Positions 4,730 to 10,217 of a stretch of DNA of 46,436 nt are shown here, in pieces. Location: positions 16,404-62,839 of the forward strand of contig JAQULR010000001.1 in assembly GCA_028749205.1 (NCBI GenBank). Direction: 5' to 3'. The notes beneath the pieces were generated by a model that saw only the letters and a list, made by a program, of their open reading frames with translations, was not told where the DNA came from and did not search any database. The position numbers were made by a program, and so were the translations under genes. Each line of letters starts with the position of its first letter. Within the stretch, counting starts at the first letter, position 1. Source of the DNA: Acidobacteriota bacterium. Lineage in GTDB: Bacteria; Acidobacteriota; Aminicenantia; Aminicenantales; Saccharicenantaceae.

Positions 4730-6520
4730 ATGGCTAAGACTGCTGAGACGAATCAAAGCTCGAAAAGAACCACCTATTGTGGTGATTTGCGGGAAGACCA
4801 TGCCGGGCAGGAAGTGGTCCTGACTGGCTGGGTTCAGCGGGTCCGGGATATCGGGAATCTGGTTTTTGTTGACCTGAGAGATCGCACGGGTTTGGTCCAG
4901 TTAGTAGCCAGAAATGAGCAGCCAGAGCTCTTAGAGCAAGCTAAAAAATTAAGAAGCGAATTTATTATCAAGGTCCGAGGCACGGTAAAAAAGAGAGAAG
5001 CAGGAGCTAGCAATCCTTCGATGCCCACAGGTGAGGTTGAGGTCGAGCTATCTGAAATAAAGATTCTAAACCTAGCTAAAATTCCGCCTTTTGTTATCAC
5101 TGACCCTCCTCAGGCAGCTGAAGAATTACGCTTTAAATACCGGTATCTTGACCTAAGGCGGCCGGCCATGCAGCGCAATATTTTCCTCCGGCATCAGGCA
5201 GCTCTGCTAACCAGAAACTTTTTGAGTCAAAAAGACTTTATCGAAATAGAGACCCCGTTTTTAACCAAATCTACCCCCGAGGGGGCTCGGGATTACTTAG
5301 TACCAAGCCGGATCCATAAAGGAAAATTTTATGCCCTGCCTCAATCTCCTCAGCTTTTCAAACAGATGTTGATGATCGCTGGATTTGACCGCTACTTTCA
5401 GATTGTCCGGTGCTTTAGAGATGAAGATCTTCGGGCAGATCGTCAACCTGAGTTCACCCAAATAGACATAGAAATGAGTTTTATTGAACGCGAAGATCTT
5501 TTCGACTTGACCGAAGAACTGATGGTTGAATTTTTCAGTCTGGCTGGAGAAAAGGTTAGCCGGCCTTTCCCAAAGCTTGGATATGAAGAAGCCATGAACA
5601 GATATGGTACAGACAAGCCTGACCTGAGAGACCCGATTGCCATTGAGGATTTGACCCAACTGGCCAGCCAATCTGGTTCGGAACTCTTATCAGGAATAAT
5701 ACAAAATGGTGGGGCGGTAAAAGGTTTGCTGGTTAAAGGGGGAGGCAGCTTGCCCCGCTCGAGACTGGATAAGTTGCAGGAAGAGGCCAAAATCCTCGGG
5801 GCAGGAGGTCTTATCTGGATAAAGAAAACTGAAAACGGCTTAAAAAGCTCTCTGAAATTAGAACCGGAAAAAATGAGAACTATCTGGGAAAGACTTAACG
5901 CCGAAGACCAGGACCTGGAATTGTTGGTAGCTTCCCCTGGAGAAGTGGCCTCAAGAGTCCTGGGTGAGTTCCGCAAAAATTTTATTTTAGAAAAAATCAA
6001 AGCCGGAAAACTGCCAGACATGAATTTAGCTTTCTGCTGGGTGACCGATTTTCCGCTTTTCGAATGGAGTGAAGAAGACCAGAAGATTGTCTCTGTCCAC
6101 CATCCTTTCACTTCTCCGCATCCCTCTGACCTGGACCTAATGGAGCAGGATCCTTTTAAAGTTAAAGCTCTGGCTTATGACCTGGTGATCAATGGCTATG
6201 AGGTAGGCGGCGGCTCTATCAGAATTCACCAGCCGGAAACTCAAGCTAAAGTTTTTAAGGTCCTCGGATTGACCCCAGAACAAGCTGAAGAAAAATTTGG
6301 CTTTTTCTTAGAGGCCCTGACCTACGGAGCTCCTCCCCATGGGGGAATTGCCCTGGGTTTTGATCGATTAGTGATGCTGCTGTGTGGAGAAGAATCTATC
6401 AGAGAAGTCATCCCTTTCCCTAAAACTACCAGTGCCCTGTGCCTTCTAACCGGTTCTCCTTCTGCGGTAGATGAAAACCAGCTAGCTGAACTCGGCCTTA
6501 AAATCAAAAAACAAATATAA
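4730..6520 (+). CDS. aspS: aspartyl-tRNA synthetase (bacterial type with GAD insert)
   Basis: This class II synthetase of 596 residues has the long bacterial form. The N-terminal OB-fold anticodon domain is at about 15-115 (GWVQRVRDIGNLVFVDLRDR). The catalytic core follows (YRYLDLRRPAMQRNI, TPEGARDYLVPSR, FRDEDLRADRQPEFTQIDIE). A GAD insertion domain is at about 300-415, and motif 3 is in GGIALGFDRLVMLL. CAGGA lies 8 nt upstream of the ATG. It could be discriminating or non-discriminating (charging tRNA-Asn as well); the sequence alone does not decide and gatCAB is not visible here. It ends the accA-hisS-aspS block; base composition drops sharply just after it. Confidence 0.95.
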   Translation: MAKTAETNQSSKRTTYCGDLREDHAGQEVVLTGWVQRVRDIGNLVFVDLRDRTGLVQLVARNEQPELLEQAKKLRSEFIIKVRGTVKKREAGASNPSMPTGEVEVELSEIKILNLAKIPPFVITDPPQAAEELRFKYRYLDLRRPAMQRNIFLRHQAALLTRNFLSQKDFIEIETPFLTKSTPEGARDYLVPSRIHKGKFYALPQSPQLFKQMLMIAGFDRYFQIVRCFRDEDLRADRQPEFTQIDIEMSFIEREDLFDLTEELMVEFFSLAGEKVSRPFPKLGYEEAMNRYGTDKPDLRDPIAIEDLTQLASQSGSELLSGIIQNGGAVKGLLVKGGGSLPRSRLDKLQEEAKILGAGGLIWIKKTENGLKSSLKLEPEKMRTIWERLNAEDQDLELLVASPGEVASRVLGEFRKNFILEKIKAGKLPDMNLAFCWVTDFPLFEWSEEDQKIVSVHHPFTSPHPSDLDLMEQDPFKVKALAYDLVINGYEVGGGSIRIHQPETQAKVFKVLGLTPEQAEEKFGFFLEALTYGAPPHGGIALGFDRLVMLLCGEESIREVIPFPKTTSALCLLTGSPSAVDENQLAELGLKIKKQI

Positions 6521-6564
6521 ACTGGGTAGGCAAACAAAAGATTTTTCGCATATTTTATTTCGTT

Positions 6565-6570
6565 TATAAT
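6565..6570 (+). promoter_or_regulatory. -10 element of the nuclease gene
   Basis: A consensus TATAAT lies 18 nt upstream of the nuclease ATG. No convincing -35 is visible at the expected distance (TTTTTC at 6542-6547). The nuclease therefore probably has its own, weaker promoter, separate from the methyltransferase. Confidence 0.4.
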
Positions 6571-6587
6571 AAGGTAAAGTAAAAATC

Positions 6588-7082
6588 ATGCCAGGCAATC
6601 GTGAAGAAAGAGGCCGAAGGGCCTCAATTGAGGGCTTCGCTAACGAAAAAATTCTATGTGGAATCCTTATGAAAAAATATGGAAACGTGTCGTTAGTCGA
6701 TCTGCCACTTTCACCTTATGACATTATCATCGTTAGAAAATTAGCCAGTGGTTCAGAAGATATTATCAGAATTCAGTCTAAAACCGCAAGAAAATCAGTA
6801 AGCTTTATAGGCGGATCTCGTGGAGGCATAGATAGAACATATAAGTCTGGAGTTAAAACATATATTCAAACAACAAAGCATTCTGATTGTGTAGTTGGGG
6901 TTCATCATGAGGATAATAAAACAGAATTATACTTTGTTCCTACAGTTTTAATAGAGAAATTGGGAAAGAAATCTATCTCTTTAACAAAGATATGTAAGTT
7001 GAAGGAAAATTATGAAATTCTTGAAAACTGTAAGAATAAATCTTTCGTTCTCAAAAAAGCAAAAGAATTTAAAATTTTATAG
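6588..7082 (+). CDS. putative restriction endonuclease, PD-(D/E)XK-like fold
   Basis: This 164-residue protein resembles small PD-(D/E)XK nucleases of the group I intron-associated type. It has an N-terminal helix with GRRASIEGFANEKI, then D45 in SPYDIIIVRK, 17 residues, and Q63-S-K65 in IRIQSKTA, giving a D-X(n)-(E/Q)-X-K metal and catalytic signature. This is followed by an aromatic strand pattern ending in TELYFVPTVLIE. It converges on a DNA methyltransferase gene with 1 bp between the stop codons, so a type II restriction role is the best reading (inference). The pair is clearly more AT-rich than aspS and the M16 genes on either side, with AAA/ATA-rich codons, suggesting horizontal acquisition. 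Alternatives are an orphan homing or repair nuclease. The recognition sequence cannot be read. Confidence 0.6.
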   Translation: MPGNREERGRRASIEGFANEKILCGILMKKYGNVSLVDLPLSPYDIIIVRKLASGSEDIIRIQSKTARKSVSFIGGSRGGIDRTYKSGVKTYIQTTKHSDCVVGVHHEDNKTELYFVPTVLIEKLGKKSISLTKICKLKENYEILENCKNKSFVLKKAKEFKIL

Positions 7083-7083
7083 T

Positions 7084-8328
7084 CTATCTCCTTTTCAGGA
7101 TTACTAGATTTTCTACTTTTGTTCGCGCATCAGGTCTCCCGGAAGCAGGATTTATTTTATAAGAGAACAACCTCCTGCTGACTATCTTATCCACTAATGT
7201 AATCTCATACCTCCAACCTAATTTTGAGAAATGTTCGACAAAAATCTTATCAATAGGAATTGATATACCACGTGAGCTAGCATGACCCACAAATAAAAAC
7301 AAATATGATGTAATTTTCTCTTGAAGACGAGTTAATGCTCCCAAAACACCCCAAAAATATCTTTGGAACACCTTTTTGATATGTACTTCGTTAATTTGTC
7401 CAAGATACTGTTCATATGTTTTCGAGTATATGTCTATAGGATCAATATCGCGATATGGAATTTCTAACTTGCTCAGCTGCTTTATATATTCTTCTTTATA
7501 TCCAAGCCAAAAAAGGTCAAGCTTGGCCTGCCTTATATATTCCTGGGATTGAAGATATGGCGGAGAAGTAATTAATATATCCTTTTCTTCTTTTAATTCC
7601 TGTTTTAAGCTGTCAACTCCGGCCAAAATATTGAATTTCACATCACATGGAAATAATCTCTGATACTCAACAATTCCCTTAAGTACTCTATTTATCTCCG
7701 ATTCTAACAATTCATAAAATTTCTTTTTCCAATCTAATTCTAATAGATTCTCTATTCTTTTTATCGATCTCGAAGATCTTGATAACTTTTGTCTCTGAGA
7801 GTCATCAAATGAAAAATATCTTGATACTTTTAGCAACGGTATAGTTAATATCATCTTTATTTCATTTTCAGGCAATGAATGATAATATCCCCACACTTGA
7901 GAAAAAAATGAAATGAACTGAGAGGGATACCAATATTCTATTCTTGGCCAATCAGGAAGAAACTCTTTTCTATTTGATATAAGGTCCTTAAATATTCCAT
8001 TTATTTCAACTGATATAGGTTTCATTATAGAAATCCTATGCAAGATTCCTAAAAGAGGATTTAGATCCCACAACTCATAATCGTTAGCATATAACCTTGA
8101 TATCACTCCGACTGTACCATAACCAGCAAAGGGATCAAATATCGACATCTCAGGTTTAGAATATTTAGAAAGTATATATGCAATCACATGTGGTATAAAT
8201 TTCGCAGGGTATCTGTAGAGTCCAAAAGTTGCATGTGTTGTTGAGGGAAATCTTATACTCTTCCTGAATTGTATTTCTTTTAGTTTTGATTGAATTTCAA
8301 CTTCGCCTTCTCTAATCCTTCTTGACAT
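7084..8328 (-). CDS. DNA methyltransferase (SPPY type) of a restriction-modification pair
   Basis: This 414-residue protein transfers a methyl group from AdoMet to an exocyclic amino group of A or C. Motif I is DPFAGYGTV (65-73) and catalytic motif IV is TSPPYL (254-259). A motif X-like segment, YRYPAKFIPHVIAYIL (about 38-53), precedes motif I, so the order is X-I-IV. SPPY is typical of N4-cytosine and some N6-adenine enzymes. About 180 residues between I and IV could hold target recognition. The start codon lies inside the 3' end of an upstream ribbon-helix-helix ORF (17-bp overlap), so translation is probably coupled and expression depends on that gene's promoter. Its stop faces the nuclease stop at 1 bp. 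The modified base and target are not deducible. Confidence 0.85.
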   Translation of the reverse strand: MSRRIREGEVEIQSKLKEIQFRKSIRFPSTTHATFGLYRYPAKFIPHVIAYILSKYSKPEMSIFDPFAGYGTVGVISRLYANDYELWDLNPLLGILHRISIMKPISVEINGIFKDLISNRKEFLPDWPRIEYWYPSQFISFFSQVWGYYHSLPENEIKMILTIPLLKVSRYFSFDDSQRQKLSRSSRSIKRIENLLELDWKKKFYELLESEINRVLKGIVEYQRLFPCDVKFNILAGVDSLKQELKEEKDILITSPPYLQSQEYIRQAKLDLFWLGYKEEYIKQLSKLEIPYRDIDPIDIYSKTYEQYLGQINEVHIKKVFQRYFWGVLGALTRLQEKITSYLFLFVGHASSRGISIPIDKIFVEHFSKLGWRYEITLVDKIVSRRLFSYKINPASGRPDARTKVENLVILKRR

Positions 8329-8482
8329 TTATCCTATTAATCTCCTTCTCGATTAGGTATTCAATATATTCACTTATTTTCATCCCTCTTTGAAGTGCTG
8401 ATAGCTTTGCTTTGAACCATAAATCTGGATCAATTCTTATGCTAGTTGTTATTCGTTTCTCACTTACTTCTTTCTTTTTCAT
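8312..8482 (-). CDS. ribbon-helix-helix DNA-binding protein, likely controller of the R-M cassette
   Basis: This 56-residue ORF has the Arc/MetJ/CopG pattern: a basic N-terminus, a beta strand (RITTSIRID), helix A (PDLWFKAKLSALQRG) and helix B (KISEYIEYLIEKEINRI). RHH proteins bind palindromic operators as dimers of dimers. It overlaps the methyltransferase start by 17 bp and is read first from a near-consensus promoter whose -10 is embedded in a perfect 14-bp palindrome. Autorepression and control of the methyltransferase are therefore likely (inference). AGGGG lies only 2 nt before the ATG, and the leader would be about 11 nt. An antitoxin-like role is possible, but no toxin gene adjoins it. 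It is short enough to be missed by length-filtered gene callers. Confidence 0.7.
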   Translation of the reverse strand: MKKKEVSEKRITTSIRIDPDLWFKAKLSALQRGMKISEYIEYLIEKEINRINVKKD

Positions 8483-8493
8483 GACCCCTATGT

Positions 8494-8528
8494 ATTAATA
8501 TATTAATGTAGTTTTTAATACTTGTCAA
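8494..8528 (-). promoter_or_regulatory. promoter of the RHH-methyltransferase operon with embedded palindromic operator
   Basis: Reading the minus strand, TTGACA (8528-8523), a 17-bp spacer and TAATAT (8505-8500) form a near-perfect promoter. The -10 sits inside the perfect 14-bp palindrome ATTAATATATTAAT (8494-8507), which is ideally placed for a repressor to exclude RNA polymerase. Confidence 0.7.
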
Positions 8529-8538
8529 TATTTTCCTA

Positions 8539-8551
8539 TTACCAATGGTAA
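8539..8551. repeat. short inverted repeat upstream of the RHH promoter
   Basis: TTACC-AAT-GGTAA lies just upstream of the -35 element of the RHH operon. It could be a second operator, but a 5-bp-arm palindrome can occur by chance. The rest of 8552-8744 is AT-rich with no gene visible. Confidence 0.3.
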
Positions 8552-8744
8552 CTTGTCTTTTTTCATATAAAAGACGGTAAAGTCAATCGATTCGTCTCAA
8601 AATATCTTAATCGTGAGACAATTATCAAAATAGGCACTTAGATTATCTTCAACCAATGCTGATGTGTAAAAAGTAAGGCCGCTTTTTTATTGGCTGTGCT
8701 CTACAAAAATAAATCTTAGAAATATCCTAATATTTTTTTACTCT

Positions 8745-10217
8745 CTACTCCACCAGTTGACCTGTAAGGGGATCAAGGAGTTTTACCCTGTGGACTTTCC
8801 CCAACCTGTCAAGAGGACCGGGGAATTTTTCAGAGCCTTTGTTGCATGGCTCCCAGTCACCGACAATCATTATTACCATTTTATCAGGCTGGATGTATTT
8901 GTTAGCTACCTCCATAACCTTCTCTTTGGTCACTGCTCTGATTTTATCCCGGTAGGTGGCATAATAGTTCATCGGCTTGCCCTGGAGCTCTAAGTTAGCG
9001 AAATTAACCATGGTTCCAATAGGGCTCTGGAAAAAGTCAGCAAAACTCTCCAGGTAATAATTTATGGCTGTCTCCATTTCGGCCTCAGAAACTGGTTCTT
9101 TTCTTATTCTTTCAAATTCTTTCAAGATTAGAGAGATAGCATAACCAACTGTTTCTGATTTTGTCTGGACATAGCCGGAAAAAGTTCCTGGAAATCCCCA
9201 GCGGTAGGTAAACCGGCTTCCAGTGTTGTAAGCTAAACCTTCATCCGACCTGACCTTGGAGGTAATTCTTGAGGTAAAACTCCCACCACCCAGGATGAAA
9301 TTCATTACCTGAACAGCAAAATAGTCAGGATTGGTATCTTCTATTCCAAGGTGCCCTACTGAAACATAACCCTGATTGATTTTCTTTTGGATGAAATATA
9401 CTCCTGGCTCAGGTTGGGGGAAATTACGGCTGATGTTCGGAAAAGACAGAGATTTGTTGGACCATTTAGAAGCATATCTGTTTATCTTGGTTCTAAGCTG
9501 ACCTCGACTGAAATCCCCGGCAGCAGCAATAATGATATTTTTTGGGAAAAAGTATTGGCTGTGAAAAGCTTTAAGATCTGATTGGCTAATACCTTCAACC
9601 GTGGCTTTAGTAGCCTGATAGGTCAGCGGATGCTCCCCATAAAGAACTTTCTCAAACTCTCTGGCCAGGATCTGGCTCGGGTTATCGTTAGCTGTTCGCA
9701 TCTGCTCTATTATTCTTCCTTTGGCCAGTTTAAGGCTGTCCTCACGGAACTCAGGGTTCATTAGGACATCGAAAAAGATATCCAACCCTTCGTCTAAATC
9801 CTTACTAAGAACAGACAGCGACAGTGAAGCTGTTCTTTCTCCGACAGAGAAATTCAAGCTGCCGCCTAGAAAATCTATTCGCTCTTCAATTTCTGGCCCG
9901 GACCTGGTCTTTGTTCCACCTTTTATCAGACAATCAGACAACAAAGAATCGAGTCCAGCTTTTTCTTTTGGGACATAAAGGCCACCCGTATGAATAATCG
10001 CTACGATATTGATTATTGGCAGTTCTCTTTCTTCTCGAACATAAGCTCTTAAGCCATTTGACAGGACAACCCGATAATCAGCCGGGTTGGGAGGTTCAAA
10101 TTTAAGGGGAGGGAACTTCAGCTCCTCCGGTCTGGACACCTGGGCCAAAACCAGGCTAAATCCAGAAAAAAGCAGCAGACATATTAAGAATACAGCTTTT
10201 ATCTTTTTCATGGTCAT
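8745..10217 (-). CDS. M16 family peptidase homologue lacking the zinc motif (partner subunit)
   Basis: This 490-residue secreted protein has a signal peptide (about 1-25, ending in VLAQ) and the two-domain M16 (pitrilysin/MPP) architecture. Conserved pieces include VVLSNGLRAYVREERELPI, the GLYVPKEKAG loop and GGGSFTSRITSKVRSDEGLAY in the C-terminal half. Where active M16 enzymes have HxxEH, this protein reads LDSLLSDCL, so the zinc site is absent. In two-subunit M16 systems (such as MPP alpha/beta), the zinc-less partner holds substrate. It begins 6 bp after the active subunit gene, with a GGAGGGATGACC context before the ATG, so the two are co-translated. Substrates are probably periplasmic or imported peptides (inference). 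Confidence 0.9.
   Translation of the reverse strand: MTMKKIKAVFLICLLLFSGFSLVLAQVSRPEELKFPPLKFEPPNPADYRVVLSNGLRAYVREERELPIINIVAIIHTGGLYVPKEKAGLDSLLSDCLIKGGTKTRSGPEIEERIDFLGGSLNFSVGERTASLSLSVLSKDLDEGLDIFFDVLMNPEFREDSLKLAKGRIIEQMRTANDNPSQILAREFEKVLYGEHPLTYQATKATVEGISQSDLKAFHSQYFFPKNIIIAAAGDFSRGQLRTKINRYASKWSNKSLSFPNISRNFPQPEPGVYFIQKKINQGYVSVGHLGIEDTNPDYFAVQVMNFILGGGSFTSRITSKVRSDEGLAYNTGSRFTYRWGFPGTFSGYVQTKSETVGYAISLILKEFERIRKEPVSEAEMETAINYYLESFADFFQSPIGTMVNFANLELQGKPMNYYATYRDKIRAVTKEKVMEVANKYIQPDKMVIMIVGDWEPCNKGSEKFPGPLDRLGKVHRVKLLDPLTGQLVE

Follow-up and report, generated by a model that had tools for sequence, protein, structure and literature searches.

The reviewed controller (C) proteins of restriction-modification (R-M) systems are helix-turn-helix (HTH) proteins (PMC3874152). 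Ribbon-helix-helix (RHH) proteins are known from toxin-antitoxin (TA) operons, where omega and PaaR act as strict repressors encoded at an upstream position (PMC3874152). RptR is a different small repressor, found in type I systems and composed of four helices with a resemblance to the TetR-like HTH (PMC12255303). Searches of open-access literature found no RHH protein described as controlling a type II R-M system, which is weak evidence of absence.

The locus considered here lies in a stretch of 46,436 nucleotides from an Acidobacteriota bacterium, analysed at its full length and called the window below. It is a genuine variant of type II R-M systems, in which the nuclease family is uncatalogued and the RHH partner is restricted to one clade. 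The following features belong to the cassette.

6521..8744, no strand: cassette-bearing segment between aspS and an M16-peptidase gene, from comparison with congeners
6588..7082, plus strand: nuclease of 164 aa, candidate restriction endonuclease (ORF list, family alignment, structure model, Foldseek)
7084..8328, minus strand: type II methyltransferase of 414 aa, SPPY class (N4-cytosine type) (motifs, PADLOC, homologues)
8312..8482, minus strand: RHH ORF of 56 aa, putative regulator, located before the methyltransferase gene and overlapping its start (model, Foldseek)
8312..8328, minus strand: out-of-frame overlap of 17 bp between the RHH end and the methyltransferase start (ORF coordinates)

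The three ORFs were re-read in the window. The original prediction was exact to the base in their positions, in the convergence of the nuclease and methyltransferase genes, whose stops are separated by a single base (7083), and in the 17-bp overlap. Its description of the cassette as AT-rich also stands, since the GC content is 32% and 35.5% in the 1-kb bins 7001-8000 and 8001-9000, compared to 40-49% in the rest of the window. The reading as an R-M cassette is borne out by the type II models that match the methyltransferase and by the linked nuclease. The nuclease and the methyltransferase are kept together in many genomes, and thus the cassette is beyond chance; the complete trio of RHH protein, nuclease and methyltransferase was met again in distant archaea.

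The segment is flanked by aspS (4730-6520, plus strand) and the M16-peptidase gene (8745-10217, minus strand). The gap between these genes is 112-365 bp in six congeners, all without the segment, and 2.2 kb in the window. The methyltransferase occurs in no other of the 142 genomes of the class that were searched, and its best relatives are mostly archaeal. Given these absences and the archaeal relatives, the cassette was most likely gained by horizontal transfer. A GC-rich hairpin GAGGCCCTTCGGCCTC (minus strand, window positions 6610-6625), terminator-like on that strand, lies within the 5' end of the nuclease gene. A search against Rfam produced no match.

Motifs YPAKFIP (X region), DPFAGYGT (I) and TSPPY (IV) were read directly in the methyltransferase, in the order X-I-(variable region)-IV, and the PADLOC model MTase_II matches residues 29-412 (E 3e-26). 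Judged by its sequence, the protein is a full-length type II enzyme of the SPPY class, and such enzymes are expected to methylate cytosine at N4. Scanning 84,980 species genomes yielded 80 loci with methyltransferases 34-63% identical to that of the window. In the tree built from 87 methyltransferases, one clade pairs with the nuclease family of the window. The sister clade pairs with an unrelated 335-aa protein, and nested within it are enzymes whose partners carry the NgoFVII C-terminal DNA-binding domain. Many members of the family have no recognised partner. The 335-aa partner (L068:5215-6195 and about 20 other loci) belongs to no Pfam family and has a weak match to PADLOC REase_II; it probably represents another uncatalogued restriction enzyme family. 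Asgard archaeal methyltransferases with no recognised nuclease beside them (L048, L066, L079, L081, L089, L093, L095) are possibly orphans. A single 726-aa ORF at L120:3080-5260 appears to be a fusion of an L002-type nuclease segment to a methyltransferase.

The window nuclease has no match among the restriction enzyme models of Pfam, NCBIfam and PADLOC, and no true match among PDB sequences, plasmids, phages and viral contigs. A profile match to the PDB entry 21nr (E 6e-5) was rejected as a repetitive low-scoring artefact. The structure model of the nuclease (pLDDT 88, pTM 0.84) is most similar to I-Ssp6803I by Foldseek (E 2.7e-4, probability 1.00), followed by MepB, HinP1I (0.97), MspI (0.87) and the SPARDA nuclease (up to 0.85). 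By this model, the nuclease is predicted to adopt a PD-(D/E)XK fold like that of I-Ssp6803I. The putative active site consists of E20, D45 and Q63-x-K65, where Q replaces D/E. The catalytic pattern D..QxK is known from I-Ssp6803I and HinP1I. Among 15 aligned homologues D45, Q63 and several glycines are invariant, and the lysine K65 is changed to arginine in three relatives (L046, L050, L161). In the SPARDA nuclease (DREN) the equivalent residues D41, Q60 and K62 are catalytic (PMC12205087). In AvaII the metal is bound by D147 and Q161, so that glutamine Q161 serves as a metal ligand (PMC7337904). The enzyme had been described as PD-(D/E)XK-like, and this holds for the fold but not for the active site, which is D..QxK rather than (D/E)xK. 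The profile comparison proposed with that description gave no matching family model, whereas the fold search supported the assignment. In one Bathyarchaeota locus (L045:3668-4189) the nuclease gene is broken by a stop or a frameshift beside an intact methyltransferase gene.

Nuclease homologues adjoin the methyltransferase in 16 loci of the scan and in three further genomes; counted as a family, the nuclease forms 19 cassettes in bacteria and archaea besides that of the window. In one archaeal class, 257 genomes were searched with a nuclease profile, which identified the nuclease in five; an independent search for the methyltransferase identified exactly the same five. Across the window's phylum (396 genomes) no other nuclease match fell below E 0.005, and in the class of L047 (80 genomes) only L047's own fell below 1e-5. 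The co-occurrence in the same five of 257 genomes and the lack of further matches in the 396 and the 80 genomes are strong evidence that the nuclease and the methyltransferase form one system.

Pfam gave only sub-threshold matches to the 56-aa ORF (CopG_antitoxin, E 0.012; MatP_C, E 0.016). Its model (pLDDT 86) contains helices at residues 19-31 and 36-55, with a strand that pairs only in the dimer. The top Foldseek matches of the model are the RHH proteins MatP, VapB, TacA, SvtR, NikA and Arc, mostly with probabilities of 0.9-0.99 and with E-values above 0.04, the latter being weak because the protein is short. The ORF is predicted from the model to encode an RHH protein. This identification, made originally from the sequence, is supported by the model and the fold matches, with Pfam remaining below threshold. 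It is also beyond chance, since four further members of the clade have an RHH ORF 5' of the methyltransferase gene. The fold is RHH and not the HTH fold of the C-protein family. No toxin gene lies beside the window RHH gene.

The original prediction suggested a search for the overlap of RHH and methyltransferase genes in homologous cassettes. A co-directional RHH gene does recur, but in only half of the testable clade members, and tightly coupled in only three cases. For the methyltransferases with 300 bp or more of upstream sequence (10 in the clade and 68 outside), a profile search detected RHH proteins before five of the clade members (window, L046, L047, L160, L161) and before none of the 68 others (Fisher 1e-5, relatives being counted as independent). 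The testable clade members L045, L048, L054, L066 and L162 lack it. Because the RHH protein is missing from half of the testable clade members and from 68 relatives, cassettes of this type can do without it. The five proteins and four other RHH proteins served to train the profile; in leave-one-out tests each of the five was the best non-training match among 14,419 ORFs, although for L160 at E 0.06.

Tight coupling was seen in the window, in a Thermoplasmata genome and in a genome of a Bathyarchaeota class, that is, in different phyla. The junction in L160 is a GTGA overlap or a 5-nt gap, and in L047 two co-directional genes are separated by 2 nt. RHH and methyltransferase genes are also co-directional in L161, at a distance of 143 bp, and in L046, where a small membrane ORF sits between them. 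This predicted membrane ORF (L046:776-970) shares ATGA with the RHH stop. Two of the other RHH proteins are 35 and 21% identical to that of the window, and parsimony on the tree requires 4 changes in RHH presence, so a single ancestral acquisition is not supported. The link between RHH protein and methyltransferase is genuine, though patchy and confined to the clade. The orientation of the nuclease gene differs: it is convergent in the window and in L046, follows the methyltransferase gene on the same strand in L160 and L161, and is divergent from the RHH gene across about 115 bp in L047. A viral contig (L126:2621-5266) encodes, on one strand and in this order, an RHH protein, a different nuclease (388 aa, L002 type) and a related methyltransferase. 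The latter two genes overlap, and a second REase-like ORF of 339 aa follows. The L126 RHH protein is more divergent, with weak Pfam RHH matches and E 0.2 with the RHH profile.

The following candidate regulatory sites were found in the window.

6565..6570, plus strand: TATAAT, -10-like hexamer 17 bp before the nuclease ATG (read in sequence)
8494..8507, no strand: perfect 14-bp palindrome ATTAATATATTAAT over the -10 box, candidate RHH operator (sequence search)
8500..8528, minus strand: sigma-70-like promoter of the RHH-methyltransferase operon, TTGACA, 17 nt, TAATAT (10/12 matches)
8539..8551, no strand: inverted repeat TTACCA-T-TGGTAA upstream of the -35 box, weaker operator candidate (7.5% of shuffles equal)

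The promoter of the RHH-methyltransferase operon has a consensus -35 box and a reasonable -10 box, and a Shine-Dalgarno-like AGGGG directly precedes the RHH ATG. Sigma-70-like sites are no more numerous in the region than in shuffles. Even palindromes as long as 14 bp appeared in 2% of dinucleotide shuffles of the 100 bp upstream of the RHH gene. The TATAAT hexamer before the nuclease gene is without a good -35 box and is possibly a weak promoter. Neither candidate operator was found before the nuclease gene in the window, and no operator-like sequence common to the cassettes was found by eye. A direct repeat GACAAGT upstream of the RHH gene was rejected, as 55% of shuffles contain one.

The control of the methyltransferase by the RHH protein that the original prediction proposed is plausible. 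We consider it fairly probable that in this horizontally acquired type II R-M system an RHH autorepressor sets the level of the methyltransferase. The methyltransferase would protect host sites by methylation of the cytosine-N4 type, and the small nuclease, through its D-QxK active site, would cut unmethylated sites. A single transcript would serve for both the RHH protein and the methyltransferase, with translation coupled by the overlap. An RHH dimer would most likely bind its own promoter region, with the palindrome over the -10 box as the candidate site, and repress it. Upon entry into a naive cell, methyltransferase production would be strong at an early stage; later, autorepression would hold it at a set level leaving enough restriction. 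This course would fit the promoter elements described above and resemble that of omega-type TA operons (PMC3874152). We infer cleavage, methylation, a target site and repression with its direction. The wider proposal is that RHH proteins make up an R-M controller class of their own in bacteria and archaea, with another arrangement on the viral contig, which repress and translationally couple the methyltransferase and accompany an undescribed I-Ssp6803I-like family of restriction nucleases. We regard the chances of this proposal as evenly balanced.

Since the placement of the nuclease gene varies between convergent, divergent and tandem, the RHH protein could also act on the nuclease. Regulation of the whole system, as by a classical C protein, instead of chiefly limiting the methyltransferase, would agree with the order RHH, methyltransferase, nuclease on one strand in L160 and L161 and with the divergent genes in L047. 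However, it seems rather unlikely, as in the window and L046 the convergent nuclease gene lies at the opposite end of the cassette, has a putative promoter to itself and has no candidate operator before it. Another reading makes the RHH protein a DNA-binding partner of the methyltransferase, for targeting or scanning, and no transcription factor. The tight coupling suggests matched amounts of the two proteins, and the RHH-containing DndE is a DNA-scanning subunit of a DNA modification system (PMC10853773). On the other hand, DndE has two tandem RHH units, the window protein is single-domain and repressor-sized, and most close methyltransferases have no RHH protein at all, which makes such a partnership highly improbable.

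A common small regulator or antitoxin remnant could also have come to lie before the methyltransferase gene by chance, as RHH proteins are abundant, the five have diverged, and the linkage is loose in L161 and L046. We consider this improbable in view of the restriction of the RHH gene to the clade, the three tight junctions in different phyla and the missing toxin gene in the window. As to the nuclease, a homing endonuclease and the SPARDA effector nuclease are closest to it in fold, and it might be an enzyme of the homing or collateral type that lies next to an orphan methyltransferase. There is very little chance of this, as the nuclease co-occurs perfectly with the methyltransferase, HinP1I and MspI are also fold neighbours, and relatives of the methyltransferase have other restriction enzymes as partners, including MvaI/BcnI-family and NgoFVII-like ones.

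If methyltransferase autorepression by the RHH protein is true, a restriction cassette can solve its timing problem by means of another DNA-binding fold, and by restraining the methyltransferase instead of activating the nuclease. In addition, a recurring family of small nucleases, absent from the family libraries searched (Pfam, NCBIfam, PADLOC), is named here.

The window nuclease has the PD-(D/E)XK fold in common with I-Ssp6803I (2OST), HinP1I/MspI and SPARDA DREN, but it has no significant sequence match to solved structures and its context is a type II R-M system. Plasmid R-M systems of the MvaI/BcnI type (L038, L041, L042, and the related L039) likewise contain a restriction nuclease, a small regulator and a distantly related methyltransferase (about 24% identity). 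However, the regulator there is of the HTH type (annotated in L038 and L041) and the nuclease belongs to the MvaI/BcnI family (called by eye in L039). The TA operons of the omega-epsilon-zeta and PaaR types are similar in having an upstream RHH repressor in an addiction module (PMC3874152), whereas the cassette has a methyltransferase and a nuclease in place of antitoxin and toxin. The RHH protein of L047 has a sub-threshold match to Omega_Repress (E 7e-6). Finally, as in the type II R-M systems with C proteins (Esp1396I, Csp231I, Kpn2I), a small DNA-binding protein in the cassette likely balances nuclease and methyltransferase; unlike in these systems, the regulator is an RHH protein encoded directly before the methyltransferase in the same direction.
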